Of a stretch of 35,208 bases of DNA, positions 2,274 through 34,465 are shown in pieces. How positions within the stretch are numbered: position 1 is the first letter of the stretch; each line of letters begins with the position of its first letter. The notes below the pieces were generated by a model. The model was not told the DNA's origin. It was given only the letters and a program-made list of their open reading frames with translations, and searched no databases. Made by a program: the position numbers and the translations under genes. The DNA is from an uncultured Solirubrobacteraceae bacterium (GTDB lineage: Bacteria; Actinomycetota; Thermoleophilia; Solirubrobacterales; Solirubrobacteraceae): NCBI GenBank assembly GCA_902806205.1, contig CADCVR010000020.1, positions 1 to 35,208 of the forward strand. Direction: 5' to 3'.

Positions 2274-2303
2274 CCGCCGGCTTCGACCGACTGCACAACC
2301 GCG

Positions 2304-2321
2304 TTGGGACACCCGTCCAAA
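2304..2321. promoter_or_regulatory. Candidate operator upstream of the permease gene
   Basis: An imperfect inverted repeat, TTGGGAC-ACCC-GTCCAAA, lies between the GntR gene and the permease ATG, 35 bases before the start. Position and symmetry suit a GntR dimer site, but it does not match a HutC-family operator I know. No guanidine riboswitch fits in this 82-base gap. Confidence 0.25.
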
Positions 2322-2355
2322 GACGCGAGGCCGGCGTGCCGCAAAGGTCTGACCT

Positions 2356-4505: not shown

Positions 4506-5164
4506 TGAGCACGATCGAACTGACCGCGAGCCCGTTGGATCCCGCCGACGCGATCATCGACGACGTCGTGCAGGCCGGCGACGGCTGGACGGGCGTCGTG
4601 CGTGCCGGCCAGGCGCTCCGGATCGTCGACCTGCACGGCAACCAGGCCGTCGACACGCTGCTCTACGACGCGCACGATCAGGCCGAGCGCTACAGCGCCC
4701 AGGACACCATCCGGGCGCAGCAGGGGATCTACCTGACGACGGGCTCGCGGCTGCTGACGGGCTCGGGGAGGGAGCTCGCGACGATCGTCGCCGACACGTG
4801 CGGGCGCCACGACACGCTCGGCGGCGCCTGCTCCCAGGAGAGCAACGCCGTCCGCTACGGGGAGCACACCCGGCACATGCACGCCTGCCGCCAGACGTTC
4901 CTCAGCGCGGCGCTGGCCTACGGGCACGGGCTGGAGAAGCGCGACCTCACGCACAACATCAACTTCTTCATGAACGTGCCGGTGACGCCGGAGGGCGGCC
5001 TGCGGTTCGAGGACGGCGTATCGGCGCCGGGCAAGTACGTCGAGCTGCTCGCCCACGTCGACACGCTGGTGCTGATCTCGAACTGCCCGCAGCTCAACAA
5101 CCCCTGCAACGCCTACGACCCGACGCCCGTCCGGCTGCTGGTCTGGGACGCGGAAGCCGCCTGA
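4505..5164 (+). CDS. DUF1989 protein, urea-amidolyase-associated protein 2 type; probable carboxyguanidine deiminase partner subunit
   Basis: A 219-residue DUF1989 protein. Its ATG shares one base with the preceding TGA. Conserved features are TCGRHDTLGGACSQESN (C99, H102, C109), HMHACRQTFL, NINFFMNVPVTPEGGLRFED and ISNCPQLNNPCNAYDPTPVR (C194). These match the UAAP2 branch, which forms a hetero-oligomer with UAAP1 in the characterised carboxyguanidine deiminase. Both subunits are intact, so the deiminase step looks functional even though the carboxylase next door is incomplete. The product would be allophanate, used by the hydrolase two genes downstream. Confidence 0.84.
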   Translation: MSTIELTASPLDPADAIIDDVVQAGDGWTGVVRAGQALRIVDLHGNQAVDTLLYDAHDQAERYSAQDTIRAQQGIYLTTGSRLLTGSGRELATIVADTCGRHDTLGGACSQESNAVRYGEHTRHMHACRQTFLSAALAYGHGLEKRDLTHNINFFMNVPVTPEGGLRFEDGVSAPGKYVELLAHVDTLVLISNCPQLNNPCNAYDPTPVRLLVWDAEAA

Positions 5165-5165
5165 G

Positions 5166-7124
5166 ATGCTCGAGGTGCTGGCCGCCGGGCCGATGACCAC
5201 CGTCCAGGAGTACCCGGGCCGCCGGGGGCTCTGGCCGGTCGGCGTCCCGCCGTCGGGCCCGATGGACAGCCTCTCCTTCCGCCTGGCCAACCGCATGGCC
5301 GGCAACCCCTCGGGGACCGCGGCGCTCGAGGTCACCGTCGGCGGGCTGCGGGCGCGGTTCACCGAGCCGGCGACCATCGCGCTCGGGGGCGCCGACCTCG
5401 ATGCGCGCCTGGACGGCACGACCATCCCGCGCTGGGCGCCCGTGCCGGTCGCGGCGGGCGCCGAGCTCGTCCTGGGCTGGGCGCGCGGCGCCGGTCTCCG
5501 CGGCTACGTCGCGATCTCGGGCGGGTTGCTCGTCCCCGACGTCCTGGGCAGCCGGGCGACGTTCCCGCTCGGCCACTTCGGCGGGTACGAGGGCCGGGCC
5601 CTGGCGCCGGGCGACCGGCTGGCCTACGCCCCGGGCGTCCGCGGCCCGCGCCGCGCGCTCAACGTGCCGGTGCGCCCTGTTCTGCGCCACGACTGGCAGC
5701 TCCGCGTCCGGCGCGGTCCCCACGACGACCTCGAGTTCTTCACCGAGACCGACCTCGAGGCGCTCTTCGGCCAGGTCTGGACGATCGGCGCCCAGTCCGA
5801 CCGAACCGGCGTGCGCCTCGAGGGGCGGACCCCCACGTGGGCGCGCCTCGACGGCGACGACGCCGGCCTGCACCCCTCCAACCTCCACGACAACGCCTAC
5901 GTCGTGGGTTCGCTGATCTTCACGGGCGACGCCCCGGTGCTCCTCGGCCCCGACGGCCCGAGCCTCGGCGGCTTCGTCTCCCCCTGCGTCGTCGTCCGTG
6001 CGGACCTCTGGAAGATGGGCCAGCTGCGGGCGGGCGATCGCGTGCGGCTCGTGGCCGTCGACGCCGGCGAGGCCGCCGCGCTCGACGAACGCCAGGAGCG
6101 CTGGCTCGAGCCCCGCGCGCGGCCGTGGCGGCGACCGCGGCCCGTCGAGTCGTCGGTCGTCCCCGCTCGCGGGGTCAACGCGACAACCCGACACGGCGGT
6201 GGCGTGCTGGTCCGTCCGTGCGGCGACGCCGCGCTGCTGGTCGAGTTCGGGCCCAACACGCTCGACCTCGAGCTGCGCCTGCGCGCCCACGCGCTGCAGC
6301 TGCGCCTCGAGGACGCGGCGCTGACCGGCGTCGGCGACCTCACGGCGGGGATCCGGTCGCTGCAGGTCCAGTTCGACCCGTGCGAGGTCGCGGTCGAAGA
6401 CCTCGTCGCACGGGTCGAGGCGCTGGCGACCGACCTCGGCGACGTCACCGGCCTCGAGGTCCCGGGACGGATCGTGCACCTGCCCCTGTCCTGGGACGAC
6501 CCCTCCGCGCGCGAGGCGATGGAGCGCTACATGCGCCTGGTCCGCCCCGACGCGCCGTGGTGCCCGGACAACATCGAGTTCATCCGCCGCGTCAACGGAC
6601 TGAACGACCGCGACGAGGTTCGCGAGATCGTCTTCGACGCGAGCTACCTCGTGCTGGGGCTGGGAGACGTCTACCTCGGCGCGCCGGTCGCCGTGCCGCT
6701 GGATCCGCGCCACCGGCTCGTGACCACGAAGTACAACCCGGCCCGCACGTGGACTCCCGAGAACGCGGTCGGGATCGGCGGGGCGTACATGTGCGTCTAC
6801 GGCATGGAGGGCCCCGGCGGCTACCAGCTCGTCGGTCGCACGACCCAGGTCTGGAACCCTGGGAAGATCGCCGCCGGACGGCCGTGGCTGCTGCGGCCGT
6901 TCGACCGGCTGCGCTTCCACCCGGTCAGCACCGAGGAGCTCGATCGCCAGCGCGCGGCGCTGCTGGCCGGGGAGCTCGAGCTCCAGACGGAGGAGTGCCC
7001 CTTCCAGCTGGCCGGTCACGCGGGCTTCGTCGGCGAGCACGCCGGGTCCATCGGGACGTTTCGCCGTCGCCAGCAGGCGGCGTTCGCCGTCGAGCGCGAC
7101 GCCTGGCGGGCGGCGGCGGCGTGA
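5166..7124 (+). CDS. KipA-KipI (AHS2-AHS1) carboxyltransferase fusion: urea/guanidine carboxylase lacking biotin carboxylase and biotin carrier domains
   Basis: A 652-residue protein whose first residues already belong to the AHS2/KipA domain (VLAAGPMTTVQEYPGRRG; PPSGPMDSLSFRLANRM), about 1-310. The AHS1/KipI domain follows at about 345-565 (VRPCGDAALLVEFG; LPLSWDD; GVGDLTAGIRSLQV; GPGGYQLVGRT). Urea and guanidine carboxylases are about 1200 residues in the order biotin carboxylase, AHS2, AHS1, biotin carrier. The last residues (IGTFRRRQQAAFAVERDAWR) are the linker that normally precedes the biotin carrier, after which the gene stops. No MKM biotinylation motif or ATP-grasp domain occurs anywhere in the window. 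Spacing is one base from the upstream stop, and the end overlaps the allophanate hydrolase start, so truncation by recent damage is unlikely. Either a carboxylase/carrier is supplied in trans, or the protein does something else, as PxpBC does in oxoprolinase. Confidence 0.85.
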   Translation: MLEVLAAGPMTTVQEYPGRRGLWPVGVPPSGPMDSLSFRLANRMAGNPSGTAALEVTVGGLRARFTEPATIALGGADLDARLDGTTIPRWAPVPVAAGAELVLGWARGAGLRGYVAISGGLLVPDVLGSRATFPLGHFGGYEGRALAPGDRLAYAPGVRGPRRALNVPVRPVLRHDWQLRVRRGPHDDLEFFTETDLEALFGQVWTIGAQSDRTGVRLEGRTPTWARLDGDDAGLHPSNLHDNAYVVGSLIFTGDAPVLLGPDGPSLGGFVSPCVVVRADLWKMGQLRAGDRVRLVAVDAGEAAALDERQERWLEPRARPWRRPRPVESSVVPARGVNATTRHGGGVLVRPCGDAALLVEFGPNTLDLELRLRAHALQLRLEDAALTGVGDLTAGIRSLQVQFDPCEVAVEDLVARVEALATDLGDVTGLEVPGRIVHLPLSWDDPSAREAMERYMRLVRPDAPWCPDNIEFIRRVNGLNDRDEVREIVFDASYLVLGLGDVYLGAPVAVPLDPRHRLVTTKYNPARTWTPENAVGIGGAYMCVYGMEGPGGYQLVGRTTQVWNPGKIAAGRPWLLRPFDRLRFHPVSTEELDRQRAALLAGELELQTEECPFQLAGHAGFVGEHAGSIGTFRRRQQAAFAVERDAWRAAAA

Positions 7125-8827
7125 ACGGCGTCGTCGCCCTCGCCGCCGCGCACCGCCGCGGCGAGCGCGACGTCACGGAAACCGTCGAGGCGCTGATCGT
7201 CGCGCTCGACGCGCCGGGCGACCCGGCGACCTGGATCTCGCGCGTGCCCGCCGACGCGCTGCGCGCCCGCGCGGCCGAGCTGGCCCGCGGCCCGCAGGAC
7301 CTTCCGCTGCTCGGCGTGCCGTTCGCCGTCAAGGACAACATCGACGCGCACGGCCTCCCGACGACCGCGGGCTGCCCGAGCTTCGCCTACGCGCCCGCGC
7401 GCTCGGCCCACGTCGTCGCGCGGCTGACGGACGCCGGCGCGATCCTCGCCGGCAAGACGAACCTCGATCAGTTCGCCACCGGACTGGTCGGCACGCGCTC
7501 GCCCTACGGCGCCTGCGCGAGCGTCGCGGGCGCCACCCACGTCTCGGGTGGCTCGAGCTCGGGCTCGGCCGTGGCGGTCGCCCGCGGCCTCGTCGCGTTC
7601 GCGCTCGGGACCGACACCGCCGGCTCCGGGCGCGTCCCGGCGGCCTTCAACGGGATCGTCGGGCTGAAGCCGACCCTCGGGCGCCTGAGCACCGGCGGTG
7701 TGGTCCCGGCCTGCCGGACGCTCGACTGCGTCTCGATCTTCGCGCGCGACGCCGCCGACGCCGCCGCCGTGCTCGCGGTGGCCGAGGGCTTCGACGCCGG
7801 CGACCCGTTCTCGCGCCGCCCGCAGGCCGGGCCGGCGGGGCGTCCGGCCGTCCTGGGCGTCCCCCGCGCCGCCGACCTCACCGCACTCGGGGAGGGGCCG
7901 GTGCGCCGCGCGTGGGAGGCCGCGCTCACCCGCGCGGCCGGCGTCGCGCAGCTCGCGGGGATCGACCTCTCGCCGTTCATGGCCGCCGCGCAACTGCTCT
8001 ACACCGGCCCCTGGGTCGCCGAGCGATACGCCGCGGTCGGCGCCTTCCTCGAGCAGGGAAGCCCCGACCTCGACCCCACGGTGCGCCGGATCGTGCTCGG
8101 CGGGGCCGCGCCCTCGGCCGCCGACGCCTTCCGCGGGGCCTACCGGCTCGCCGAGCTGCGCCGCCTCACCGACGCCGTCTGGACCAGGGTCGACGCCCTG
8201 CTCGTCCCGACGGCACCGCGCCATCCCACCCATACCGAGGTGGCCGCCGACCCGGTCGGCGTCAACGCCCAGCTCGGGATCTGGACGAACTTCGTCAACC
8301 TCCTCGACCTGGCCGCCGTCGCCGTCCCGGCCGCCCCTCGCGACGACGGCCTGCCGTTCGGCGTGAGCCTCGTCGCGCCGGCCTGGGCGGACGCCGCCCT
8401 GCTGCGCCTGGCCGGGGCGTGGGAACGCAGCGACGGGCCCACCGTCGACGTCGCCGTCGTCGGCGCCCACCTCTCCGGGATGCCCCGCAACCACGAGCTC
8501 GTCGGCCTCGGCGCCCGGCTCGTCCGGGCCACGCGAACGGCGCCGGCCTACCGGCTCTTCGACCTCGGGGACGGGACCGGCCGCCCCGGCCTGCTCCGCG
8601 ACCGCGCCGCGGGAGCGCCCATCGAGCTGGAGGTCTGGCGGCTCGGCGTCGCGGCCTTCGGCCGCCTCGTCGACGCGGTCGCCGCGCCGCTGGCGATCGG
8701 CAGCGTCGAGCTGCGAGACGGGACGACGGTCAAGGGCTTCCTGTGCGAAGCGCACGCGGTGGCCGGAGCCGAGGAGGTGACCGTGAGCGGCGGCTGGCGG
8801 GCGCACCTCTCCGCCGCCTGCTCATGA
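7121..8827 (+). CDS. atzF: Allophanate hydrolase (amidase signature family)
   Basis: A 568-residue cytoplasmic enzyme that hydrolyses allophanate to two ammonia and two carbon dioxide. The amidase core contains the full Ser-cisSer-Lys triad: K71 in FAVKDNID, the cis-serine in GGSSSGSA (about S146) and the nucleophile S169 in GTDTAGSGR. The C-terminal 130 residues, after about 440, form the extra domain typical of AtzF (VAVVGAHLSGMPRNHEL; TAPAYRLFDLGDGTGRPGL; FLCEAHAV). The GTG start overlaps the previous stop by four bases. It takes allophanate from the DUF1989 pair and possibly also from biuret through the next gene. Length and motifs are normal. Confidence 0.93.
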   Translation: MNGVVALAAAHRRGERDVTETVEALIVALDAPGDPATWISRVPADALRARAAELARGPQDLPLLGVPFAVKDNIDAHGLPTTAGCPSFAYAPARSAHVVARLTDAGAILAGKTNLDQFATGLVGTRSPYGACASVAGATHVSGGSSSGSAVAVARGLVAFALGTDTAGSGRVPAAFNGIVGLKPTLGRLSTGGVVPACRTLDCVSIFARDAADAAAVLAVAEGFDAGDPFSRRPQAGPAGRPAVLGVPRAADLTALGEGPVRRAWEAALTRAAGVAQLAGIDLSPFMAAAQLLYTGPWVAERYAAVGAFLEQGSPDLDPTVRRIVLGGAAPSAADAFRGAYRLAELRRLTDAVWTRVDALLVPTAPRHPTHTEVAADPVGVNAQLGIWTNFVNLLDLAAVAVPAAPRDDGLPFGVSLVAPAWADAALLRLAGAWERSDGPTVDVAVVGAHLSGMPRNHELVGLGARLVRATRTAPAYRLFDLGDGTGRPGLLRDRAAGAPIELEVWRLGVAAFGRLVDAVAAPLAIGSVELRDGTTVKGFLCEAHAVAGAEEVTVSGGWRAHLSAACS

Positions 8828-9423
8828 GCCGCCCGGCGCTGCTGGTCATCGACCCGCAGATCGACTTCCTCGGACTGGTCGAGGCGGGCGGCCCGCACGG
8901 CTGCGACGCCGCCGCGGCGCTCGCGGGGATGGAACGGCTCGTCGCCGCGGCGCGCTCCGGGGGCGCACCCGTCGTCGTCACCCAGGAGCTGCACCGGCCG
9001 GGCCGGGTGGATTTCGGTCGCGAGCTCGACGGCGACGAGCCGGTGCACTGCGTCGAGGGGACGCCGGGAGCCGAGCTGGTTGCGGCGCTGCGGCCGCGAC
9101 CGTCCGAGCACCTGGTGCGCAAGCGCCGCTACAGCGCGTTCTTCGCCACCGACCTCGGGCTGCTGCTGCGCGGTCTGGAAGTCGACACCGTGGTGGCCTG
9201 CGGCCTGCTCAGCGACGTGTGCGTCCACTACACCTGCGTCGACGCCCACCAGCTCGATCTTCGGGTGCACGTCGTCCCGGAGGCGTGCGCCGGGTCGAGC
9301 CCAGCGGCCGCGCTGGCCTCCTTCGCGGCCGTCGAATACCTGCAGCGGGGCGCGGTCCTGCCCTTGGACGGCGCCTCGCGCCTGCTGCGGTCAGCGGGGG
9401 CCGAGCGACCGTGCGGGAGGTAG
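8824..9423 (+). CDS. Isochorismatase-like cysteine hydrolase, possible biuret hydrolase
   Basis: A 199-residue protein; ATG overlaps the stop of atzF (ATGA). The Asp-Lys-Cys triad of the cysteine hydrolase superfamily is visible: D10 in LLVIDPQIDF, K100 in LVRKRRYSAFFATDL and C133 in GLLSDVCVHYTCVDA. Relatives include N-carbamoylsarcosine amidase, ureidoacrylate amidase and biuret hydrolase BiuH. Biuret hydrolase makes allophanate, so coupling to an allophanate hydrolase makes biuret the most attractive substrate. The sequence alone does not separate it from other amidases of the family. Last gene of the operon. Confidence 0.8.
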   Translation: MSRPALLVIDPQIDFLGLVEAGGPHGCDAAAALAGMERLVAAARSGGAPVVVTQELHRPGRVDFGRELDGDEPVHCVEGTPGAELVAALRPRPSEHLVRKRRYSAFFATDLGLLLRGLEVDTVVACGLLSDVCVHYTCVDAHQLDLRVHVVPEACAGSSPAAALASFAAVEYLQRGAVLPLDGASRLLRSAGAERPCGR

Positions 9424-20587: not shown

Positions 20588-20787
20588 CACGGTTCGGCGC
20601 TCGCCGCGCCGTCTCCCGCGTCGGGGGCCGGCGCGGCGCGCGTCTCGGCCAGGCGCTCGTGCAGCTTGGCCCGCAGGTCGGCGGGGTCGTACTCCTGCTG
20701 GCCGCGGCGCCGCCGGACCACCACCACCCCCGAGGCGGCGACGCCCGCCACGCCCGCCAGACCGACGATCTTCCACGGAACGCGCAC
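20587..20787 (-). CDS. Small single-helix membrane protein, unknown function
   Basis: A 66-residue protein with one N-terminal transmembrane helix (VGLAGVAGVAASGVVVV) followed by a basic stop (RRRRGQQ), then a short helix (DPADLRAKLHERLAETRA) and an alanine/proline tail. Its stop overlaps the start of the acetyltransferase gene, so it is translationally coupled. Proteins of this layout are common in Solirubrobacterales-type genomes and have no known role. Confidence 0.68.
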   Translation of the reverse strand: MRVPWKIVGLAGVAGVAASGVVVVRRRRGQQEYDPADLRAKLHERLAETRAAPAPDAGDGAASAEP

Positions 20788-24879: not shown

Positions 24880-25950
24880 CTACGCGGCGAGCAGCTCCGC
24901 GCCCAGCGCAGCCGCGCCCTCACGACTGTCGATCAGCTCGAGCACCGCGGCCTCCACCCCCTCGGGGTAGGGCCCCTGCGTCGGGTGAGGCGGACCGTCG
25001 GTGCGGGCGAGGGCCTCCCCGAGCGCCGTGCCGATCGTCAAGCCGGAGCGGAAGCGGTCGAACACCCGGGGGTCGATGTAGGACGAGCGCGCGACGGCCG
25101 GCGTGTTGCCGAGATACTGCGCGACCTCCTTGACGGCGCGCACCTCCAGGCGCTTGCGCGCGGTCTGCGACTCGTTCGCGGCGCCCGTCACCGAGAGGGC
25201 GATGGACGCGAGCACCGTGGCGTTCCAGGTGCGGAAGTCCTTGGCGGAGACATCGAGGCCCGTGCGGTCCTTGAGGTAGGCGTTGATGTGCTCGGAGCGC
25301 ACGTCGAGCCACCGGCCGCCCTGCTTGTAGGCCAGGAGCTCGGGGCTGCCGCCGCGGCGCCGCTTCAGCCGGGCGACGACCTCGGCCGAGACCGGGTCGA
25401 CGACGTGCTGCACGCGACGCAGGCCGTGCTTGGCCGGGAAGTCGAAGAGGACCGCGTCCTCGATGACGTGGACGTGCTTCTTGTGCATGGTCGCCAGCCC
25501 GTAGGTGCCGTTCTCGGCGGCGTAGCCCTCCGATCCGATCCGGAAGAACCCGCGGTCGAGGAGCCGCACGGTGACGGCGAGCACCTGCTGCGCGGAGAGC
25601 GGCGGCTGCTCGAGATCCTCGGCGACGCGCTCGCGCAGCACCGGTAGGACGCGCGCGAAGGAGAGCATGTCGTCGAACTTCCGTCGCGCACGCTGGAGGT
25701 GCCAGTCGGGGTGGTAGACGTACTGGCGGCGCCCCCGTGCGTCGGTTCCGGTGGCCTGCACGTGCCCGCGCGGGTCAGGGCAGATCCACACGTGGTTCCA
25801 CGCCGGCGGGATCGCCAGTGCCTTCACGCGGGCGATGGTCTCGGCGTCGGTGACGCGCTCGCCCGCGGGATCGAGCAGTTGCCAGCCCTTGCCGTGGCGG
25901 CGACGCACCAGCCCCGGCGATCCGGGGTCGGCGCGGCGCAGGCGCGGCAA
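24880..25950 (-). CDS. DNA topoisomerase IB, poxvirus-like
   Basis: A 356-residue enzyme that relaxes supercoils through a 3'-phosphotyrosine. The N-terminal DNA-binding part shows ALAIPPAWNHVWICPDPRGH and GTDARGRRQYVYH. The catalytic domain has GFFRIGSEGYAAENGTYGLA (R137), VDVRSEHINAYLKDRTGLDV, KDFRTWNAT (R240) and the nucleophile Y291 in ARSSYIDPRVFDRF. Active-site residues are complete. The start is a TTG at 25950, three bases after the sigma stop at 25954; no ATG or GTG fits better. It therefore shares a transcript with the general-stress-type sigma factor. Length is usual for bacterial topoisomerase IB. Confidence 0.92.
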   Translation of the reverse strand: MPRLRRADPGSPGLVRRRHGKGWQLLDPAGERVTDAETIARVKALAIPPAWNHVWICPDPRGHVQATGTDARGRRQYVYHPDWHLQRARRKFDDMLSFARVLPVLRERVAEDLEQPPLSAQQVLAVTVRLLDRGFFRIGSEGYAAENGTYGLATMHKKHVHVIEDAVLFDFPAKHGLRRVQHVVDPVSAEVVARLKRRRGGSPELLAYKQGGRWLDVRSEHINAYLKDRTGLDVSAKDFRTWNATVLASIALSVTGAANESQTARKRLEVRAVKEVAQYLGNTPAVARSSYIDPRVFDRFRSGLTIGTALGEALARTDGPPHPTQGPYPEGVEAAVLELIDSREGAAALGAELLAA

Positions 25951-25953
25951 GGG

Positions 25954-26760
25954 TCAGGCCGCGCGGAGGCGGCGCGGCGAAGCGGGGACGACGTCGGTGT
26001 CGGCCATCTGCTGGCGCATGTCCTCCAGCGAGCGGCGGATGAGCCGCGAGACGTGCATCTGCGAGATGCCGACGTGCTCGGCGATCTCGCGCTGCGTGAG
26101 CCCTTCGAAGAACCGCAGGCGCATGATCGCCTGCTCACGGTCGGCCAGGATGCGCATGCCGTTGGACAGCAGGACGCGGCGCTCGGCGGTCATGAACTCC
26201 GGATCCTCCTCGCCGAGCAACTCGAGGGCGGTGCGGTTCTCCCCGATCGGCTCCTCGAAGGAGACCGTGGAGTACGACTGGGCGCCCTGGAGCGCGTCGA
26301 GGACGTCTTCCTCGGTCGCCTTCACCGCGATCGCGAGCTCGGCGATCGTCGGCGAGCGCGAGAGCTTGGTGGTCAGGCGGTCGGTCGCCTGCGTGAGCTT
26401 CGCGTTGAGCTCCTGGATGTCCCGCGGGACGCGGATCGACCAGCCCCGATCCCGGAAGTGACGCTTGATCTCGCCCGCGATGTTGGGGGCGGCGAAGGTG
26501 GACAGCTTGACGCCGCGCTCGAGGTCGAAGCGATCGACGGCCTTGATGAGCCCGACGGCGCCGACCTGCGCGAGATCGTCCAGCGGCTCGCCGCGATTGG
26601 CGTAGCGTCGCGCGATGTGGCGTACAAGCGGCATCATGCGCTCGATCAGCATCGTGCGAGCCTGGAGGTCGCCGTCGCGGTGATAGCGCTCCAGCAGCGC
26701 CACTTCGTCAGTGGCGATGGAGGTGCGCGGCTCGACGGCGCGGTTCTCGGTCGTGCTCAT
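25954..26760 (-). CDS. SigB/SigF-type alternative sigma factor
   Basis: A 268-residue sigma-70 family factor without region 1. Region 2 contains LIERMMPLVRHIARRYANRG, LDDLAQVGAVGLIKAVDRFD and LSTFAAPNIAGEIKRHFRD; region 3 has IRVPRDIQELNAKLTQA and the SPTIAELAIAVKATEEDVL segment; region 4 ends in REIAEHVGISQMHVSRLIRR. The IRVPR and SQMHVSRL motifs are diagnostic of the SigB/SigF/SigG group controlled by partner switching. The ATG at 26760 is preceded by GGAGGAACCC, an excellent ribosome site, which decides the start over the in-frame ATG at 26790. Its likely inhibitor (RsbW type) is divergent. Confidence 0.94.
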   Translation of the reverse strand: MSTTENRAVEPRTSIATDEVALLERYHRDGDLQARTMLIERMMPLVRHIARRYANRGEPLDDLAQVGAVGLIKAVDRFDLERGVKLSTFAAPNIAGEIKRHFRDRGWSIRVPRDIQELNAKLTQATDRLTTKLSRSPTIAELAIAVKATEEDVLDALQGAQSYSTVSFEEPIGENRTALELLGEEDPEFMTAERRVLLSNGMRILADREQAIMRLRFFEGLTQREIAEHVGISQMHVSRLIRRSLEDMRQQMADTDVVPASPRRLRAA

Positions 26761-26913
26761 GGGTTCCTCCCTGAATCGTTCAGATGCCATGGCGTCACTT
26801 TCGCCGTCCGCGCGTCGCAGACAAGGCGGTCAAGGGTGGGCAGTGGCCGCTCGGGCCGCCCCAATTCCGTTTGACGAACCGGACAGACCCGGTCACGCGT
26901 CTGATGCTCCGCC

Positions 26914-26938
26914 GTTTGGACCGCGTGCCATCCGGGCA
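26914..26938 (+). promoter_or_regulatory. Possible SigB/SigF-type promoter for the anti-sigma gene
   Basis: GTTTGG at 26914-26919 and GGGCAC at 26934-26939 have 16 bases between GTTT and GGGCA, the right spacing for actinobacterial SigF-type promoters, with one mismatch from GGGTA. It lies 37 bases upstream of the chosen anti-sigma ATG and would put this regulator under its own sigma. Confidence 0.35.
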
Positions 26939-26975
26939 CCGACTCCGGGCGGAGCGCGCCAGCGCCGCGACGCCG

Positions 26976-27392
26976 ATGCCCGCCCCCGATCTCGAGATCT
27001 CCCTCCCCGCTCGCGCGGAGAACGTCGCCGTCATCCGGCATGTCCTCGGAGGAGTCGGCGACGCGCTGGCCCTGCACCCCGAGATCCTCTCCGACGTCAA
27101 GCTCGCGATCAGCGAGGCCTGCGCGAACGCCGTGGTCCACGCGTACGCGGAAGGCGAGCCGGGGCTCCTCGACATGGAGCTCCGCACGGGTCCCGAGGAG
27201 CTCGAGGTCGTCGTGCGAGATCACGGGCGGGGGATGACGCCCCGCGCCGACTCGCCAGGCCTGGGGGTCGGCCTGCCGCTCATGGCCAGCCTCGCCGAGT
27301 CGCTCGAGCTGACCAACCGCGCCGACGGCGGGACCGAAGTGCGCATGTGCTTCGTCACGAGGAACCCGGACCTGCCGGGCGGGCTCTCGTAG
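26976..27392 (+). CDS. RsbW-type anti-sigma serine kinase (HATPase)
   Basis: A 138-residue GHKL ATPase domain. The N box is ILSDVKLAISEACANAVVHA, the G1 box VVVRDHGRGMTP and the G2 region GLGVGLPLMASLAESLEL, closing with GGTEVRMCF. Such kinases bind SigB/SigF-type sigma factors and phosphorylate a STAS antagonist; both partners lie within 1.5 kb. The ATG at 26976 gives the usual short lead (PAPDLEISLPARAENV); an ATG at 26904 would add a poorly conserved basic leader that overlaps the candidate promoter. Translation is coupled to the next ORF (TAGTG). Confidence 0.88.
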   Translation: MPAPDLEISLPARAENVAVIRHVLGGVGDALALHPEILSDVKLAISEACANAVVHAYAEGEPGLLDMELRTGPEELEVVVRDHGRGMTPRADSPGLGVGLPLMASLAESLELTNRADGGTEVRMCFVTRNPDLPGGLS

Positions 27393-27826
27393 TGCGCACG
27401 AGCGACCTGGACACGAGCCAAGCGGTCGACCGCCTCGACCGGACGCGCGTGACGGTCGCTGTCGGACCGCTGGTCGGCCCGGTCCTGGTGCGCGTGGTGG
27501 GCATCCACGCGGCGCGCGCCGACCTTCCCGTCGATCGCCTCAACGATGCCGTTCTGGTCGCCGACGCGATCGCCGCCCACGCGCCGGCCTTCGCCGTCGG
27601 CGATCGGCTTCCGGTCAGCGTGCAGTCCGGCGCCGGGCGCCTGGAGCTCCGCATCGGCCCGCTGCGACCCGGCGGCGGCCGCCTGGTGCTCGAGGGGGCC
27701 GCGCTCCCGGCCGTCGGCTCGGTCATCGAGCGCCTCGCCGATGCCGTTCGTGTCCGGGACGGGGCCGGCGGTGGCGAGTACCTCGTGATCCGCATCGACG
27801 CGGCCGTCGGCGAGGCGGACCGTTGA
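27392..27826 (+). CDS. Degenerate RsbW-like protein lacking ATP-binding motifs
   Basis: A 144-residue protein whose GTG overlaps the stop of the anti-sigma kinase by one base. Its layout follows an anti-sigma HATPase: an initial strand, helix DLPVDRLNDAVLVADAIAAH in the place of the N box, a central strand (LPVSVQSGAGRLELRIGPLR) and a final helix with YLVIRI. The N-box asparagine, the DxGxG box and the GLGLG box are missing, so it should not bind ATP. Perhaps a non-catalytic partner of the kinase or a separate sigma/antagonist-binding module. The assignment rests on position and secondary-structure pattern and is moderate. Confidence 0.6.
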   Translation: MRTSDLDTSQAVDRLDRTRVTVAVGPLVGPVLVRVVGIHAARADLPVDRLNDAVLVADAIAAHAPAFAVGDRLPVSVQSGAGRLELRIGPLRPGGGRLVLEGAALPAVGSVIERLADAVRVRDGAGGGEYLVIRIDAAVGEADR

Positions 27827-28022
27827 GGGGTGCGGACAGCTCCCCCGAGCGCCGCGGCCCGGAGCTCAGCGAGGGCTTCTGCACAGGCGTTCGGCGCCTG
27901 CGGGTGGCCCGGTCGGGGGCTCGCGGATCCGAGCGGCGACGCGTCACGACCACCCAGACCCTTGCCATCCGTCAAGATGGACAGATACTTCGAACCGCCC
28001 CGATGCAGACAGGACCCCCCAG

Positions 28023-28382
28023 ATGACGTTCGACTTCTCGCTGACCGAGGATCGGCCCGCCTCGGGCGCGCACGTCATCGCCGTCGCCGGAGAGGTGGAC
28101 ATCTTCACCGCGCCCGAGCTCAAGCGCGCGATCGGCGGCGCCATCGACGGCGGCGCCCGGGAGCTCGTGGTGGATCTCACGGAGACGCGCTTTCTCGACT
28201 CCACCGCCCTCGGGGTGCTGATCGGCGCCGTCAAGCGCCTGCGGCCGCTGGAGGGCCGGCTCATGATCGTCAACACCGAGCCGAGCACGGCCAAGACCTT
28301 CGAGATCACCGGTCTCGATCAGATCTTCACCATCGTCGAGACGCGCGACGACGCGCTCCTGCTGCTCGCCGCGCGCTCCTGA
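28023..28382 (+). CDS. STAS-domain anti-sigma factor antagonist (SpoIIAA/RsbV type)
   Basis: A 119-residue single-domain STAS protein: VIAVAGEVDIFTAPELKRAI at the N-terminus, LVVDLTETRFLDSTALGVLI with the serine that is phosphorylated by the partner kinase (DST-AL), and EGRLMIVNTEPSTAKTFEIT with the C-terminal helix. When unphosphorylated such proteins capture the anti-sigma kinase and free the sigma. It lies about 200 bases after the degenerate RsbW-like gene and probably has its own promoter in that gap. Completes a sigma / kinase / antagonist partner-switching module. An AGGACC-like ribosome site precedes the ATG. Confidence 0.92.
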   Translation: MTFDFSLTEDRPASGAHVIAVAGEVDIFTAPELKRAIGGAIDGGARELVVDLTETRFLDSTALGVLIGAVKRLRPLEGRLMIVNTEPSTAKTFEITGLDQIFTIVETRDDALLLLAARS

Positions 28383-28391
28383 CGCGACGGG

Positions 28392-28904
28392 TCAGCGCTC
28401 GGGCCCGACGGCGGGCCCGTCCTCACCGTCGCCCGCGTCATGGCCCGCGTTGCGCGAGGTCTGCGGCTCGGGGTGCCGCCCTTCGACCAGCGCCGCAAGC
28501 CGGCGCAGGGCCTCGACGTTGCGGCCGTGCAGGACGAGGTCCATGAGCGGGTTGTAGAAGAGCCGGGCGACCGGGCTCGCCGGGCCCTCGTGCATCGTCA
28601 CGTGGGTGCCGTCGCCCACGGCGGCCAGGTCGAGCTCGACGGTGCCACGACCGAGCGGTCGGGCCTTGACGTGCAGGACCAGGCGGCGCGGCGCATCGGA
28701 CTCGACGACCTCCGTCTCGTCCCTGAGGTCGATGGGGCCGAACGCGAACGTGTGGCCGAAGGAGGCCCCCTCGGCCGGAAACGTCGGGTCGGCGTCGCGG
28801 ACGTCGCGCGAGCCGACCACCCAGTGCGCGTAGTTGTCGGGATCGGCCAGCACGGCCCAGACCCGTTCGGGCGGCGCAGCGATCTGCTTGTGCGTCGTAG
28901 CCAT
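28392..28904 (-). CDS. SRPBCC-fold (polyketide cyclase/START-like) protein
   Basis: A 170-residue protein from the ATG at 28904. It opens with the family pattern KQIAAPPERVWAVLADPDNY, AHWVVGSRDVRD, followed by beta strands and the long C-terminal helix (PLMDLVLHGRNVEALRRLAA), then a disordered acidic tail. SRPBCC proteins bind hydrophobic ligands in a helix-grip pocket. It lies 40 bases downstream of the methyltransferase on the same strand and is probably in the same transcript. Its ligand is unknown. It converges on the STAS gene with only 9 bases between. Confidence 0.85.
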   Translation of the reverse strand: MATTHKQIAAPPERVWAVLADPDNYAHWVVGSRDVRDADPTFPAEGASFGHTFAFGPIDLRDETEVVESDAPRRLVLHVKARPLGRGTVELDLAAVGDGTHVTMHEGPASPVARLFYNPLMDLVLHGRNVEALRRLAALVEGRHPEPQTSRNAGHDAGDGEDGPAVGPER

Positions 28905-28944
28905 GGCTGTCGTATCCCCGGAACGTCCGGAGGTCACCCGCGGG

Positions 28945-29619
28945 TCACGCCGCGACGGCGACGGGCGGGCGGCTCGCCACGACTACGGCCATGAGCTCCT
29001 CGTCGCCACCGGGCCTCAGGACGCCGCGACGCTCGAGGTGCCCGCGACGCGCTTCGGCGATCGGACCCAGCGGGCCGCGATGCTCGACGGGCGCGGCGAG
29101 CTCGAGGCCTGCCCGCTCGAGCGCGGCGACGGTCAGTGGCACCCCGGCAAAGCCCGACTGCACGAGCGCCAGGCACCCGCCCGGATGCAGGCGGGTGGGG
29201 GCCTCGGCGACGATGCGGTCCAGGATCCTGCGGCCGTCGGCGCCCGCGTCCCAGCGCCCGTCGGCGTCCGCCTCCGCCGGGAGGTACGGGGGATTGGCGA
29301 CGATGAGGTCGAAGCGCTCGTGGGGATGCAGCGCTGCGAACAGGTCGCCGTGGCGGACCTCCACCTGGCTCAGGCGGTTCAGGCGGGCGTTGACGCGGGC
29401 GGCGGCGACGGCACGGCCCGAGCGATCCACCGCGACGACTCGCGCCGCGCCGCGCGCCGCCGCGGTGAGGGCCAGCGCGCCGGAGCCCGAGCAGAGTTCG
29501 AGGACGCCGGCGCCGGCGACGTCCGGCATCTGGCCCGCGAGCAGGGCCGTGTCCGAGCGCGGCGCGTAGACGCCCGGCGGCACGAGAAGCCGCAGGCCCG
29601 CGAAGCGGTGCGTGGTCAC
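28945..29619 (-). CDS. MTQ2/HemK2-like methyltransferase (N5-glutamine methyltransferase family)
   Basis: A 224-residue class I S-adenosylmethionine methyltransferase. The N-terminal VYAPRSDTALLA motif, SAM-binding loop VLELCSGSGALAL (39-51), VVAVDRSGRAVAAARVNA and the catalytic NPPY (109-112) in LIVANPPYLPAE are those of HemK2/MTQ2 and PrmC relatives, which methylate the glutamine in GGQ release factors or similar side chains. The RF N-terminal domain of PrmC is absent, as in MTQ2. The GTG at 29619 overlaps the Rieske stop. Being in an operon with a diiron protein, its target may be something other than a release factor (inference). Confidence 0.82.
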   Translation of the reverse strand: MTTHRFAGLRLLVPPGVYAPRSDTALLAGQMPDVAGAGVLELCSGSGALALTAAARGAARVVAVDRSGRAVAAARVNARLNRLSQVEVRHGDLFAALHPHERFDLIVANPPYLPAEADADGRWDAGADGRRILDRIVAEAPTRLHPGGCLALVQSGFAGVPLTVAALERAGLELAAPVEHRGPLGPIAEARRGHLERRGVLRPGGDEELMAVVVASRPPVAVAA

Positions 29620-30002
29620 GCCGCGGACTCCTGCGCCTCGCGGGCGCGGGCGCGCGCCCACAACTCGGAACGCTCCGTCGCTGCGGGCGCCTCGGGGTCG
29701 ACGCGCACCTCGACGACGCCGTCGTGCTCCCTGGCCTCGTGGGTGACCAGGCACTCCGGGGCGCGCATCCGCAAGAGCTCGCCTGTCCGGACGTCCCACT
29801 CCCAGGTGTGCGCGCGGCAGGTCAGCACGTTTCCGGCGAGCCGACCCTCGTGCAGCGGCCAGCGGCGGTGCGGGCAGGCGTCGTCGAAGGCGTGTACCGC
29901 GCCCTCGAGGCGCACGAGGCACACGAACCGGCCGGCGACCTCGACGGCGGTCGGCGTTCGCGCGGGGAGCTCGTCCGCACGCAGAACCGCCAGCCAGGTC
30001 AC
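29616..30002 (-). CDS. Rieske [2Fe-2S] ferredoxin-like protein
   Basis: A 128-residue protein with the Rieske cluster motif C43-x-H45 (DACPHRRWPLHEG) and C62-x2-H65 (NVLTCRAHTWEWD), separated by 16 residues. The opening strand (TWLAVLRADELPARTP) and VAGRFVCLVRLEGAVHAFDD are typical of single-domain Rieske ferredoxins that feed electrons to oxygenases. The GTG overlaps the stop of the diiron-protein gene by four bases, and its own stop overlaps the methyltransferase start. A natural role is electron donor to the upstream enzyme (inference). Confidence 0.88.
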   Translation of the reverse strand: MTWLAVLRADELPARTPTAVEVAGRFVCLVRLEGAVHAFDDACPHRRWPLHEGRLAGNVLTCRAHTWEWDVRTGELLRMRAPECLVTHEAREHDGVVEVRVDPEAPAATERSELWARARAREAQESAA

Positions 30003-31081
30003 CTGGCCGTTCCGCCCGCGCGCAGCGAGGAGCGCCCGGCGCTGAAGCACGCATGCAGATGCGCCGAGAGCAGCGAGTGGACCCAGCGGCCCTCGAGCAC
30101 GCCCCGAGCGACCTCGGCCATCGCAGCGGGCTCTTCGCGCACGACGGGCATCACCACCTCGTTGAGGGCCACGTCGGAGTGGCCCTCGTCGGCGTCGATG
30201 TGCAGTTCGTAGAAGGTGAGCACCTCGGGGTCGTCGATCCCCGCCCGCGCGTAGGCGGCGAGATAGTTCTTCATCGATCCCGGAGAGTCGGCCTCGACCA
30301 GGTAGATGTACCCGTACATCCGCCGGCACAGCCGCCGGTGGCGGGCCAGCATCGCCTGGTAGTTCAGGCCGGCGAGGACCGGCCAGGACGTCTGCTCGAA
30401 GTAGTGGTCGTAGCCGGTCTCGAGGCCGAGCTTGCCCATGAGCACCTCGTAGACCGTCGAGTGCATCTGGTCGAAGCGGCCCCAGCCGTACTCGTCGAGG
30501 ATGAGGTCGATGAGTCCTGCCTTCGCGCGTCCGTGGAGCGAGGGGATGACCATCGTCCACGGGTCCGGCTCCTTGAGGAAGAAGAGCGAGCGTTGCGCGA
30601 CCACCTCGGAGAGCTGCTCGAGGGTTGCGTGCTCGCGGTAGAACTCGCCCATCGACGGCCCTTCGAAGGGCACCGGGCGCTCGAGCGCCAGATGCTCCAG
30701 CCACGGTCCGAAGGACTCGGGATCGGTCGGCAGGTCCTCGGGAAGCGACGCGCTGCGCGCGAGCTGCGCCTCGAAGGCCCGCTCGAGCTCGAGCCGGACC
30801 GCGGCCAGCGTGAGATCATGCTCGTTGTCGCGTTGCGCGCCGACGGGCGACCAGCCCTGCTGAGCGCCGAGGACGTACAGCGCACGGTGGGCGACATCGA
30901 GCGCCGCGGGCTCCTCGAGGACGAACGCGGCCGCGGCGACCTCGCGCGCCCCGGTCACCAACGCGGCGCCGCGACCGGGGTCCGCGGCGAGGACGCCCGC
31001 GAGCCCCGGGGTGGCGAGTGCCTCGGTGAGCAAGTCGTCGAGTCGGGTGGCGGGATCTGCGAGCAACGTCTCTGAAGCCAT
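29999..31081 (-). CDS. Haem-oxygenase-like diiron oxidase (iron-containing redox enzyme family)
   Basis: A 360-residue all-helical protein. The metal ligand set of the HDO superfamily is complete: E197 in ILDEYGWGRFDQMH, H207, E263 in YLVEADSPG, then H294-x3-D298-x2-H301 in FYELHIDADEGHSD. Related HDOs (UndA, BesC, CADD, SznF) use two irons and oxygen to oxidise fatty acids, amino acids or nitrogen groups. The N-terminal 120 residues form a separate helical region. It heads the minus-strand operon with the Rieske and methyltransferase genes, whose starts overlap in series. The substrate is unknown. The start at 31081 is the first ATG of the frame. Confidence 0.85.
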   Translation of the reverse strand: MASETLLADPATRLDDLLTEALATPGLAGVLAADPGRGAALVTGAREVAAAAFVLEEPAALDVAHRALYVLGAQQGWSPVGAQRDNEHDLTLAAVRLELERAFEAQLARSASLPEDLPTDPESFGPWLEHLALERPVPFEGPSMGEFYREHATLEQLSEVVAQRSLFFLKEPDPWTMVIPSLHGRAKAGLIDLILDEYGWGRFDQMHSTVYEVLMGKLGLETGYDHYFEQTSWPVLAGLNYQAMLARHRRLCRRMYGYIYLVEADSPGSMKNYLAAYARAGIDDPEVLTFYELHIDADEGHSDVALNEVVMPVVREEPAAMAEVARGVLEGRWVHSLLSAHLHACFSAGRSSLRAGGTAR

Positions 31082-31182
31082 GCCCTGCGCTTCTCCGGTA
31101 CGCGGCGCCGCCGAAACACGCCGGGCGCGCCCGATCGGCGATCAGGGCTTGCTTCGGGGGCCGTCCGGATATACCCACCTCG

Positions 31183-32355
31183 ATGGCGGCCCGCTCGACT
31201 CCGCGTCTTCCGCGAGCCCCCGCCCGGGGTGGACTGCGCCCCTTCGATGCCCATGAGCGTCCGTTCACCGTCGGTGTCGAGGAGGAGCTGATGCTGCTCG
31301 ACCCCGAGACGCTCGACCTCCTGCCGGCCTGCGGTGAGGCGCTCGAGCGCATCGGCGACCCGCGCTTCAGGCCCGAGCTGCCGGCGGCCCAACTCGAGCT
31401 CGTCACCCCCGTCCTCCCGCACGCCGACGCGCTGGCCGTCGCGCTGCTCGACGCGCGCTGCACCGCCGTCGAACGCCTCGACGGCTTCGCCCGGCTGGCC
31501 GGCGCCGGGGTCCATCCCTTCGCCGCCCCCGAGGGCGCCTCGAGCGCGGGCGCCCGCTACGCCGCTCTGAGCGAGCGCTACCAGTGGGCCGCCCGACGCG
31601 CCATGACCTGCGGCCTCCACGTGCATGTCGCCGTGCCGGGCGGCGACCGGGCGCTCGCGGTCCACGACGCGCTGCGAGCCCATCTCCCCGAGCTTGCCGC
31701 CCTGGCGGGAAACGCGCCGTTTCACGAGGGCCGCGACACCGGCCTGCATTCCGTGCGCCCGAAGCTCTGCGAAGGTCTTCCGCGGCAGGGCATTCCCCCC
31801 GCGCTCGGGAGCTGGGCGGCCTACCGCGAGCTGCTGGCCTGGGGGGCGGCGGGCGACGCCTTCCCCGCTGCGGAGCTCTGGTGGGAGGTGCGCCTGCACC
31901 CGGAGCATGGCACCGTCGAGGTGCGGGTCTGCGACCAGCCCGCCACCGCGGGGGCGTCCGCGGCGCTCGCCGCCGTCGTCCAGGCACTGTGCGCGTGGCT
32001 GTCGGCGCGGCACGACGCCGGAGAGCTCGGGGCACCCGCCCCGACGGTGCGTATTCAGGAGAACCGCTGGCGCGCCCTGCGCCACGGCCTCGATGGCGCC
32101 TTTCTCGACCTGCGCACGGGAAGCCCGGAGCCCGCGCGCGAGCGCGTCGAAACGCTGCTGTGCACGCTCGAGCCGGTCGCGGCCGGGCTCGGCTCCGGCG
32201 GGGCGTTCGCCGTGGCCTGGACTCTGCTCGAGAGCACCGGCAGCACGTGCCAACGCGACATCGCCGGTGAGGCTGGTGGTGACCTGCGCACGGTGGTGGA
32301 AGATCTCGCGGCACGCCTGGAGGACGAGGCGCTGGCCTTGGAGCCGCTGCCGTGA
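31183..32355 (+). CDS. Glutamate-cysteine ligase family 2 (YbdK/EgtA-like carboxylate-amine ligase)
   Basis: A 390-residue enzyme. Conserved features: FTVGVEEELMLLDPETLDLL (substrate/ATP EEE motif), PELPAAQLELVTPV, MTCGLHVHVAVPGGDRALAV (the GxHxH metal motif), WWEVRLHPEHGTVEVRVCDQ and RIQENRWRALRHGLDGAF. These define the GCS2 carboxylate-amine ligase family, which joins glutamate or a related acid to an amine with ATP; YbdK has weak gamma-glutamylcysteine activity, EgtA makes it for ergothioneine. No ergothioneine or mycothiol genes are adjacent. Divergent from the diiron operon with about 100 bases between. Confidence 0.88.
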   Translation: MAARSTPRLPRAPARGGLRPFDAHERPFTVGVEEELMLLDPETLDLLPACGEALERIGDPRFRPELPAAQLELVTPVLPHADALAVALLDARCTAVERLDGFARLAGAGVHPFAAPEGASSAGARYAALSERYQWAARRAMTCGLHVHVAVPGGDRALAVHDALRAHLPELAALAGNAPFHEGRDTGLHSVRPKLCEGLPRQGIPPALGSWAAYRELLAWGAAGDAFPAAELWWEVRLHPEHGTVEVRVCDQPATAGASAALAAVVQALCAWLSARHDAGELGAPAPTVRIQENRWRALRHGLDGAFLDLRTGSPEPARERVETLLCTLEPVAAGLGSGGAFAVAWTLLESTGSTCQRDIAGEAGGDLRTVVEDLAARLEDEALALEPLP

Positions 32356-32359
32356 CTTG

Positions 32360-32420
32360 GAAGCTGTTTCAGAAAGAGCGGTGCGCCGAGGAAACCGTCT
32401 CGCGGCACCGGAACAGCTTC
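32360..32420. terminator. Nested inverted repeat between convergent genes
   Basis: GAAGCTGTTTC (32360-32370) pairs with GGAACAGCTTC (32410-32420), one G-T mismatch, and inside it GGTGC (32380-32384) pairs with GCACC (32405-32409). It sits just after the ligase stop and before the 3' end of the convergent DUF892 gene, so it probably terminates both transcripts. No long U run follows. Confidence 0.6.
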
Positions 32421-32434
32421 TTACGCGGTGACCG

Positions 32435-33397
32435 TCAGAGCTTCGCGAGCTGAGCGTCGACCTTCTTCGAGCGCAAGGCCGCGATGCGATTCAGGACACG
32501 CTTGCGGCCGCGCCCGCCGCGCTCGTACCCGTCGACGGCCGCGAGCTCCTCGGCGGACAGCGTCTTGAGCTTGGGCAAGATCTGCTCCACGGAGAGCGAG
32601 TCGTAGTCGGCGATGGCCAGATCGTCGTCCAGTTCCGCGGTCGCCGGGCGACCCTCGCCGTCGACCTGAGCATCGACCGGGGCCTTGGGCGCCGCGGCGA
32701 CGACCGTGTCGTCGGCGTCCGCGGTGGTCTCCACCGCCATGGCGCCTCCGGCCGCGTGCGTCTGGTCCCCGGCGCTCTCGGTCTGCCCGCGGAGGCTGCG
32801 GGCGGTCGCCGTGACCTTCCGTGCGGCGCCGCGGACCGTGTCCACGGCGCCCGTGGTCATCGGGTCGTAGTGCGGGTGCCCCTCGACTTCGGCGTCGACC
32901 ACGTCGGTGGCCAGGCCGGGGATGAGGTCGCGCAGGTCTGCCAGGAACGTCTCCTCCTGCGTGCGGTGCTCGCGCGCGAGCACCGCGGTCTTCGGGTCGT
33001 CGACGGCCTCGGCGACGGCTTCCAGCGCGTCGTAGCTCGCAATCTCGAGCGCCTCGGAGGCCGCCTCGTCTCTCGCGTTCTTGAGCAGCTTCTCCTCGCC
33101 GCCGGTGCCGCGGATCAGGTTCAAGGGCGCGAGGACGAGCGAGATGCCCTGCCCGATGGCGTCCTGAGCGGTGCCGTAGACGACGTGAAGGAGCGAACTG
33201 GACCGGCCGAGCTCGGTCAGTCGCTGCTCGATGCGCTGCGCCTGGGTACGCGTCTCGTACCGGTGGCGCTCGAGGATGTCGCGGTACGCCGAGCGCGGCG
33301 TCATCGCGATGTGCGCGGTCAGCGTCGAGGCCAGCTGGGTCTCGAGGGCATGGATCTCCTCCAGGTACTGAAGGACCTTGTCGGCAGAAGAGGGCAT
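32435..33397 (-). CDS. DUF892 (YciE-like ferritin-fold) stress protein with C-terminal repeat domain
   Basis: A 320-residue protein. The N-terminal domain is a helical bundle like the YciE/YciF ferritin-like family (VLQYLEEIHALETQLASTLT; ILERHRYETRTQAQRIEQRL; ALEIASYDALEAVAEAVDDP; AREHRTQEETFLADLRDLIP). A disordered acidic middle follows at about 170-250. The end carries LAIADYDSLSVEQILPKLKT, LSAEELAAVDGYERGGRGRK, a short helical domain found at the C-terminus of many actinobacterial envelope or stress proteins. YciF-like proteins are induced by osmotic and general stress. The ATG lies 60 bases from the divergent UvsE gene. Confidence 0.82.
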   Translation of the reverse strand: MPSSADKVLQYLEEIHALETQLASTLTAHIAMTPRSAYRDILERHRYETRTQAQRIEQRLTELGRSSSLLHVVYGTAQDAIGQGISLVLAPLNLIRGTGGEEKLLKNARDEAASEALEIASYDALEAVAEAVDDPKTAVLAREHRTQEETFLADLRDLIPGLATDVVDAEVEGHPHYDPMTTGAVDTVRGAARKVTATARSLRGQTESAGDQTHAAGGAMAVETTADADDTVVAAAPKAPVDAQVDGEGRPATAELDDDLAIADYDSLSVEQILPKLKTLSAEELAAVDGYERGGRGRKRVLNRIAALRSKKVDAQLAKL

Positions 33398-33457
33398 GAG
33401 AAAGCTGTCTCCGCACCACGAGGCGTCAAACGAAGGCGGGCGCGGTATGCGTCACAG

Positions 33458-34465
33458 ATGCGCCTCGGCTTTGCGGTGAAGGTCCTCGGCGCCGGCGGAC
33501 TGCCGTCCCAGGACACCCGGCGCTGGCAGTCGGCGCCCCACCTGCGGGTCTCGATCGAGCGCCTCGGCGCCGTCTTCGCCTACTGCGCCGACGCCGGCAT
33601 CGGGATGTACCGGATGACCGCCTCGCTGGCACCGTATGCCACCCACCCCGACCTCCCGCAGTTCCACGGGCAAGTGGGCGAGAGTCTTGCCGAGCTCGCC
33701 GAACTCGGCGCCACCGCACGCGCCCGGGGCCTGCGGTTGTCCACCCATCCCGGCCAGTACGTCGTGTTGAACTCCCTCGAGGAGCGGGTCGTCGAGGCGG
33801 CCATCCGTTATCTCGAGCTCCAGGCCGAGCTCTTCGACGCGATGGGCCTGGGCCCGGAGGCCGTCGTGAACATCCACGTCGGCGGTGCGCCCGGCGGCAC
33901 CGCGCAAGGCCTCGATCGCTTCCAGCGGGGCTTCGCCCGCCTCTCACCGGAGGCGCAGCGACGCATCGTCGTCGAGAACGACGACCGCACCTACGGCCTC
34001 CGGGACGTCCTGGACCTCTCCGCCAGTATCGGTCGCCCCGTCGTGTGGGACATCCTGCACCACCACTGCCACGATCCTGCCGGGATCCCCGACGCCGAGG
34101 CGCTGCGCCTCGCGCTGGCGACATGGCCCGAGGGGGTGCGACCCAAGATCCACTACTCCTCGCCGCGCACGAACGTGGAGGAGCGCAGGAAGAAGGTCGG
34201 CCGCCGCGTCGAGCGCTCGCTCGTCCTCCCCCAGCTACGTGCCCACGCCGACCTCATCGATCCCATCGCCTTCGAGGAGTTTCTCCTGCGCACCGCCGGC
34301 GACCTCGAGTTCGACGTCATGCTCGAGGCCAAGGCGAAGGATCTGGCCCTGCTGCGCCTGCGCGAGCAACTCGAGGCGCGCGGCCTGCGCCCGGAGCAGG
34401 CCCGCCCGAGCCGCGCCGGGGGGCCCGGGATCCCGAAGGGCCCGGACGACGCGGTGGCGGCATGA
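33458..34465 (+). CDS. uvsE: UV damage endonuclease, UvsE/UVDE family
   Basis: A 335-residue TIM-barrel nuclease that nicks DNA 5' to UV dimers and some other lesions. Metal-binding and core motifs are all present: LGFAVKVLG at the start, GIGMYRMTASLAPYATHPDL, LRLSTHPGQYVVLNS, VNIHVGGAPGG, RRIVVENDDRTYGLRDVL, VVWDILHHHCHDP, RPKIHYSSPRT and EFDVMLEAKAKDLALLRL. The start at 33458 gives the family's usual N-terminus; the frame is open far upstream but that part overlaps the divergent DUF892 gene. Gives light-independent UV repair. Confidence 0.94.
   Translation: MRLGFAVKVLGAGGLPSQDTRRWQSAPHLRVSIERLGAVFAYCADAGIGMYRMTASLAPYATHPDLPQFHGQVGESLAELAELGATARARGLRLSTHPGQYVVLNSLEERVVEAAIRYLELQAELFDAMGLGPEAVVNIHVGGAPGGTAQGLDRFQRGFARLSPEAQRRIVVENDDRTYGLRDVLDLSASIGRPVVWDILHHHCHDPAGIPDAEALRLALATWPEGVRPKIHYSSPRTNVEERRKKVGRRVERSLVLPQLRAHADLIDPIAFEEFLLRTAGDLEFDVMLEAKAKDLALLRLREQLEARGLRPEQARPSRAGGPGIPKGPDDAVAA

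Follow-up and report, generated by a model that had tools for sequence, protein, structure and literature searches.

A heme-oxygenase-like diiron oxidase locus with a Rieske partner: an apparent variant of an actinobacterial oxidation module

Although more than 10,000 heme-oxygenase-like diiron oxidases (HDOs) are predicted, only about a dozen have been functionally validated (PMC13108848). Closest to the system considered here are the HDO N-oxygenases SznF (streptozotocin) and RohS (azomycin), for which the literature we searched describes no dedicated [2Fe-2S] partner, and HrmI, the lysine N-oxygenase of hormaomycin. MboA/MboB of mangotoxin is possibly the first characterised HDO pair with a dedicated redox partner, MboB being a reductase with flavin and Fe2S2 (PMC13185094), and outside the family the soluble Rieske ferredoxin T4moC reduces the diiron oxygenase toluene 4-monooxygenase, binding its hydroxylase in a specific complex that sets the centres about 12 A apart (PMC4200526). 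Here we analyse a stretch of 35,208 nt of contig CADCVR010000020.1 (GCA_902806205.1) from an uncultured Solirubrobacteraceae bacterium, hereafter the window, in which an HDO gene adjoins the genes of a Rieske protein and an NPPY methyltransferase (MTase) and lies divergent to that of a GCS2 ligase. Our comparisons establish, at the level of sequence, a four-gene module whose parts co-occur, whose HDO ligands are invariant and of the SznF type, and which uses Rieske or CDGSH proteins in a mutually exclusive manner; a known enzyme superfamily thus apparently sits in an undescribed module with an unusual exchange of partners. The features of the locus are:

29999-31081, minus strand: HDO, 360 aa (PF14518, E=8.5e-34)
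29616-30002, minus strand: Rieske [2Fe-2S] ferredoxin, 128 aa (PF00355, E=6.7e-19)
28945-29619, minus strand: NPPY methyltransferase of the HemK2/MTQ2 type, 224 aa (TIGR00537, 90.9 bits)
31183-32355, plus strand: GCS2/YbdK-type carboxylate-amine ligase (PF04107, E=7.2e-45; TIGR02050, 235.9 bits)
31082-31182, no strand: intergenic stretch of the divergent GCS2/HDO pair (from the sequence)
28392-28904, minus strand: SRPBCC (polyketide-cyclase-like) gene (Polyketide_cyc2, PF10604, E=8.5e-17)

The HDO scores 117.3 bits against PF14518, above the gathering score of 28.9, and as this is the one Pfam match in its 360 residues it lacks the C-terminal cupin domain that SznF possesses. Its predicted ligands are E171, E197, H207, E263, H294, D298 and H301. 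An earlier sequence-only reading of this DNA had named the last six, with correct numbering, and overlooked the first; all seven are invariant in 25/25 aligned HDOs from both the Rieske and the CDGSH lineages, and in 58 of the 59 homologues of a larger alignment. The exception, L125 (G719, 7107-8063), reads E171N, E197D, H207T, E263K, H294R and H301N, and is possibly a non-metal HDO homologue or else a misaligned row. SznF E189 and RohS E93 are Fe1 ligands contributed by auxiliary helix 2 (PMC11611611), and because the alignment places E171 opposite SznF E189 and a RohS Glu, the window HDO would have the extra Fe1 glutamate of the 3H/4C (three histidine, four carboxylate) type. In support of such a site, the AlphaFold2 model (mean predicted local distance difference test, pLDDT, 92; predicted template modelling score, pTM, 0.91) finds its best structural matches in HrmI (Z 36.6 over 336 residues), SznF (28.3) and RohS (26.9), followed by 3bjd, FlcD and CADD. 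The three best named matches are all N-oxygenases, and SznF and RohS, at about 20% identity to the window HDO, have its fold and likewise all seven ligands of the 3H/4C set. HrmI is the best match over the full length (about 21% identity), but its site is 3H/3C, as is that of MboA, and the site predicted here is 3H/4C.

The second gene product, a small single-domain protein, carries the complete Rieske motif already recognised from the sequence alone (CPHR...CRAH, matching PF00355), and comparison with PDB entries finds its nearest relatives among the soluble ferredoxins that serve aromatic oxygenases, T4moC included. T4moC differs in its partner, a ferritin-like diiron hydroxylase where the window protein adjoins an HDO, and the pairing also recalls MboA/MboB, except that MboB is a reductase and the protein here a ferredoxin. 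We surveyed 249 genomes of the window's class and found HDO homologues in 35, the closest of which carry the same HDO-Rieske-MTase arrangement; a scan of named genomes added four further Rieske trios, from two Solirubrobacterales metagenome-assembled genomes (MAGs), one Solirubrobacteraceae MAG and one Nitriliruptorales MAG. Order and strand are identical in all seven Rieske-type loci, which include another family and, with the Nitriliruptorales MAG, another order, and the Cys2His2 (CxH...CxxH) motif is present in 7/7. Lack of conservation elsewhere, of the trio or of the HDO ligands in close homologues, had been named as what would overturn the sequence-only reading; the trio instead recurs, and the ligands hold.

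That reading had further mentioned actinobacterial loci in which CDGSH takes the place of Rieske, and this is borne out: among 55 HDO loci there are 7 with Rieske, 38 with CDGSH and none with both (MTase in 30, GCS2 in 16). CDGSH and Rieske proteins occupy one genetic slot and exclude each other in any one locus. The CDGSH cases belong to a sister HDO lineage spread over the Actinomycetota (38 of its 48 loci), and in the class survey a CDGSH motif lies near the HDO in all other fetched loci but L025, for which a longer stretch (L053) reveals one about 1.2 kb upstream of the HDO, past GCS2. The exclusion does not extend to whole genomes; the notion that Rieske-type genomes are devoid of CDGSH was rejected, as the window's genome has two CDGSH genes elsewhere. 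In a survey of the phylum the HDO family was present in 61/396 genomes and 38/237 genera, and in short loci of other classes CDGSH lies within 1.5 kb in about half. Kitasatospora and Streptomyces loci annotated by the Prokaryotic Genome Annotation Pipeline (PGAP) as iron-containing redox enzyme, CDGSH protein and HemK2/MTQ2 methyltransferase represent the module in the form that has CDGSH where the window has Rieske (HDOs about 30-37% identical), a YbdK ligase being also annotated beside it in Kitasatospora; our literature search found no functional study of them. On the HDO tree the 7 Rieske-type and 52 CDGSH-lineage proteins form two groups separated by one label change. Support for the Rieske branch is low (68/13) and, the outgroup branches being long, the tree is not rooted firmly enough to give the swap a direction. 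The Nitriliruptorales HDO nests among those of Solirubrobacterales (98/93), which suggests, from the tree, a transfer or a misbinned contig. For some HDOs of the family no CDGSH, MTase or GCS2 gene turned up in the neighbourhood (L119-L121, L124, L126-L128, L132), and on the 62 kb plasmid pW21 of Curtobacterium sp. MCPF17_021 (L162, 5821-7130) HDO and CDGSH genes overlap by four bases without MTase or GCS2.

The third gene was described earlier as an MTQ2-like methyltransferase, and so it scores: 90.9 bits against TIGR00537 (HemK2/MTQ2, a hypothetical equivalog model; cut-off 87), with the NPPY motif present. It is not PrmC, since TIGR03534 gives 109.6 bits against a cut-off of 199.1 and the genome encodes a PrmC of its own on contig C19. 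Its subfamily (P0003, E up to 1e-25) is found in 27/249 class genomes, 25 of which have the HDO (hypergeometric p = 4e-24, shared ancestry ignored), within 3 kb of it in 23/25. The MTase tree is mostly unresolved and therefore permits no comparison of its branching with that of the HDO tree. The ligase, which the sequence-only reading had passed over, exceeds the cut-off of TIGR02050 (235.9 bits against 176.4) and that of PF04107 also, identifying it as a YbdK-type carboxylate-amine ligase. Its subclade, drawn at 242 bits or more after the scores were seen, is present in 29/249 class genomes, 26 of them with HDO (p = 2e-24, with the same disregard of ancestry and the post hoc score line), and GCS2 lies no more than 3 kb from the HDO in 25/26. 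Since HDO, the MTase subfamily and the GCS2 subclade go together in these genomes, and nearly always within 3 kb, GCS2 is the fourth conserved part of the module. In one genome (G130:C154:6650-8416) the module's GCS2 and MTase adjoin and no HDO was detected in the genome, possibly owing to a fragmented assembly.

We also considered whether these are unrelated genes packed together by chance in a compact high-GC genome. Gene overlaps are frequent in high-GC actinobacteria, and here GTGA at 29999-30002 is common to the HDO stop and the Rieske start and GTGA at 29616-29619 to the Rieske stop and the MTase start; these overlaps, like the gene coordinates and the 40 bases between the MTase stop and the SRPBCC ATG at 28904, had been read correctly from the sequence alone. 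HDO and GCS2 are transcribed divergently with 101 bases between their start codons, a stretch (31082-31182) that presumably holds both promoters. However, the trio recurs in seven loci, its CDGSH counterpart spans the phylum and co-occurrence is strong, making chance a very remote prospect and refuting it for HDO, [2Fe-2S] protein, MTase and GCS2. For the SRPBCC gene, by contrast, chance placement is the likely reading. It had been proposed as a member of the operon, yet it accompanies 3/55 HDO loci and is absent beside the other Rieske-type loci, so that we reject it as a conserved part and place it probably outside the module; nor does it score as a toxin of the Rv0910 toxin-antitoxin type (NF047960, 35 bits against a cut-off of 100).

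As to function, we read the locus as the Rieske form of an oxidation module conserved in actinobacteria, made up of GCS2, HDO, [2Fe-2S] protein and NPPY MTase and serving a small-molecule pathway, an assignment that falls just short of what we would call probable. The sequence-only reading had pictured a Rieske-fed oxidase sharing its substrate with the methyltransferase; trio, ligands and exchange are upheld, while that the Rieske protein passes electrons to the HDO, what the substrate and product are and that the MTase acts on that substrate are at present matters of inference. On the model of T4moC, the Rieske ferredoxin would reduce the diferric HDO between turnovers, which we consider rather likely. 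CDGSH proteins are linked to cluster transfer, and the [2Fe-2S] protein might instead deliver iron or clusters to the diiron site, or sense redox state, without being an electron donor. Such a role would suit a family whose diiron sites are labile (PMC13108848). Against it, the CDGSH and Rieske folds are unrelated, with mainly one-electron [2Fe-2S] chemistry in common, and in T4moC a Rieske ferredoxin is already known as donor to a diiron hydroxylase; we regard delivery or sensing as improbable and favour electron transfer, given that a single genetic slot is filled by either of two unrelated [2Fe-2S] folds. The reduced HDO would then activate O2 through a peroxo-diiron(III) species and might N-oxygenate an amine or guanidine derived from an amino acid, a chemistry we put forward with some doubt. 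The NPPY enzyme would N-methylate the same nitrogen-containing scaffold and GCS2 join it through an amide bond, in an order that we do not set; that both act on one scaffold is quite conceivable, if not yet something we would expect. The product would be a small metabolite under general stress control.

Alternatively the MTase and HDO could act on a protein side chain and GCS2 attach a residue to the protein, in the way that PafA, a relative from within its carboxylate-amine ligase superfamily (PMC2588565), ligates Pup. In favour of this, the TIGR00537 family consists of protein methyltransferases, HemK2/MTQ2 methylating a release-factor glutamine. But PrmC is encoded elsewhere in the genome, neighbourhood clustering gave no conserved small gene for a substrate protein, and the substrates of most characterised HDOs are amino or fatty acids, so that protein modification seems to us a poor prospect beside the small-molecule pathway.

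Several observations weigh against the proposed pathway. N-oxygenation is not shown by a fold match, as HDO chemistry varies widely among members that share ligands, and HrmI, the closest fold, has no equivalent of E171. About ten loci of the CDGSH lineage have neither [2Fe-2S] gene nearby, and hence a dedicated donor is not universal; a ferredoxin reductase is likewise absent from the locus, the rest of the genome not having been searched. GCS2 is mostly confined to the window's own class and is missing near two Rieske-type loci, and the dimethylargininase described below, a possible clue to the substrate, occurs once.

Around the module lies a further feature that the earlier reading did not take up, a neighbourhood of SigB/SigF-type stress regulators, which we take as context and not as part of the module:

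25954-26790, minus strand: SigB/SigF-type sigma factor, near the module
26976-27392, plus strand: RsbW-like anti-sigma gene (RsbW/SpoIIAB models)
28023-28382, plus strand: STAS anti-sigma antagonist (TIGR00377)

Sigma factors of SigB/SigF grade number about 0.9 per Mb in 20 class genomes, and one lies within 10 kb of 5/20 HDO loci where about 0.4 would be expected (p 3e-5; p = 4e-4 without the window, which had first drawn attention to the link). The pathway is probably stress-linked, which fits a protective metabolite and direct protection alike. In the latter case the HDO itself would limit reactive oxygen or iron damage during stress, with the [2Fe-2S] protein as electron source and no dedicated metabolite. 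A likeness exists in DtpC of Acinetobacter baumannii, an HDO-domain protein tied to stress survival whose predicted metal ligands are required for desiccation tolerance (PMC13232832). The proximity of SigB/SigF genes above chance and the presence of DUF892 and UvsE among the window's neighbours point the same way. However, direct protection leaves the tight co-occurrence of MTase and amide ligase unexplained, and DtpC is co-transcribed with catalase, the text consulted mentioning no [2Fe-2S], MTase or GCS2 partner, whereas beside the HDO loci we noticed no catalase, though no catalase search was made. We judge direct protection unlikely and keep to a dedicated metabolite.

The wider surroundings offer some observations of their own. 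Window positions 24880-34465 form a stretch of stress genes (SigB/SigF-type sigma, RsbW-like, STAS, DUF892, UvsE endonuclease) with a topoisomerase IB-like gene that was assigned by eye and has no NCBIfam match. On plasmid p65_CHABEC of Streptomyces sp. CA-256286 (L160, 1075-7872) MTase, CDGSH and HDO genes run on one strand between two annotated SigB/SigF/SigG genes. A plasmid of Kitasatospora sp. NBC_00039 (L157, 3860-7918) has a complete CDGSH-type module, near SpoIIE, STAS, SRPBCC and CsbD genes, in which a gene annotated as dimethylargininase stands between those of the YbdK ligase and the HDO; found in one locus only, it was rejected as a general module part, and since SznF acts on N-methyl-arginine it gives a weak hint of an arginine-type substrate. 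At 1515-9423 of the window (plus strand) lie genes for a GntR-like regulator, a permease, UAAP1, UAAP2, a urea-carboxylase-like protein, allophanate hydrolase and an isochorismatase-like protein, resembling a urea or guanidine breakdown cluster; the carboxylase-like protein spans model positions 449-1109 of 1201 and its biotin-carboxylase part is missing. No guanidine riboswitch or other Rfam RNA was found in the window, whose sole tRNA gene is an unusually long tRNA-Pro(CGG) of 97 bases (20671-20767, minus strand).

In the literature we searched nothing joins an HDO with CDGSH, Rieske or YbdK proteins, a search that largely left out subscription papers, so that a description we have not seen is possible. 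Taken in full, the proposal is of a stress-linked pathway, widespread among actinobacteria and so far undescribed, whose 3H/4C N-oxygenase, with an interchangeable CDGSH or Rieske donor, yields an N-oxidised and N-methylated metabolite ligated through an amide by YbdK; it is doubtful enough to be offered as conjecture. If true, it would provide, as far as the searched literature shows, the first CDGSH or Rieske protein to serve as dedicated donor of an HDO. Natural electron donors of HDOs are largely unknown beyond MboA/MboB, and the module presents a large group of Actinomycetota HDOs genetically tied to a [2Fe-2S] protein, in which the natural swap of two unrelated folds makes the question of the electron donor directly testable. 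Moreover, the fixed co-occurrence of GCS2 and MTase narrows the pathway enough for a product search, and relatives of the module are found in culturable genera such as Streptomyces. The four neighbouring genes, which recur together across many soil bacteria, seem to specify an oxidation pathway that is linked to stress and so far undescribed.

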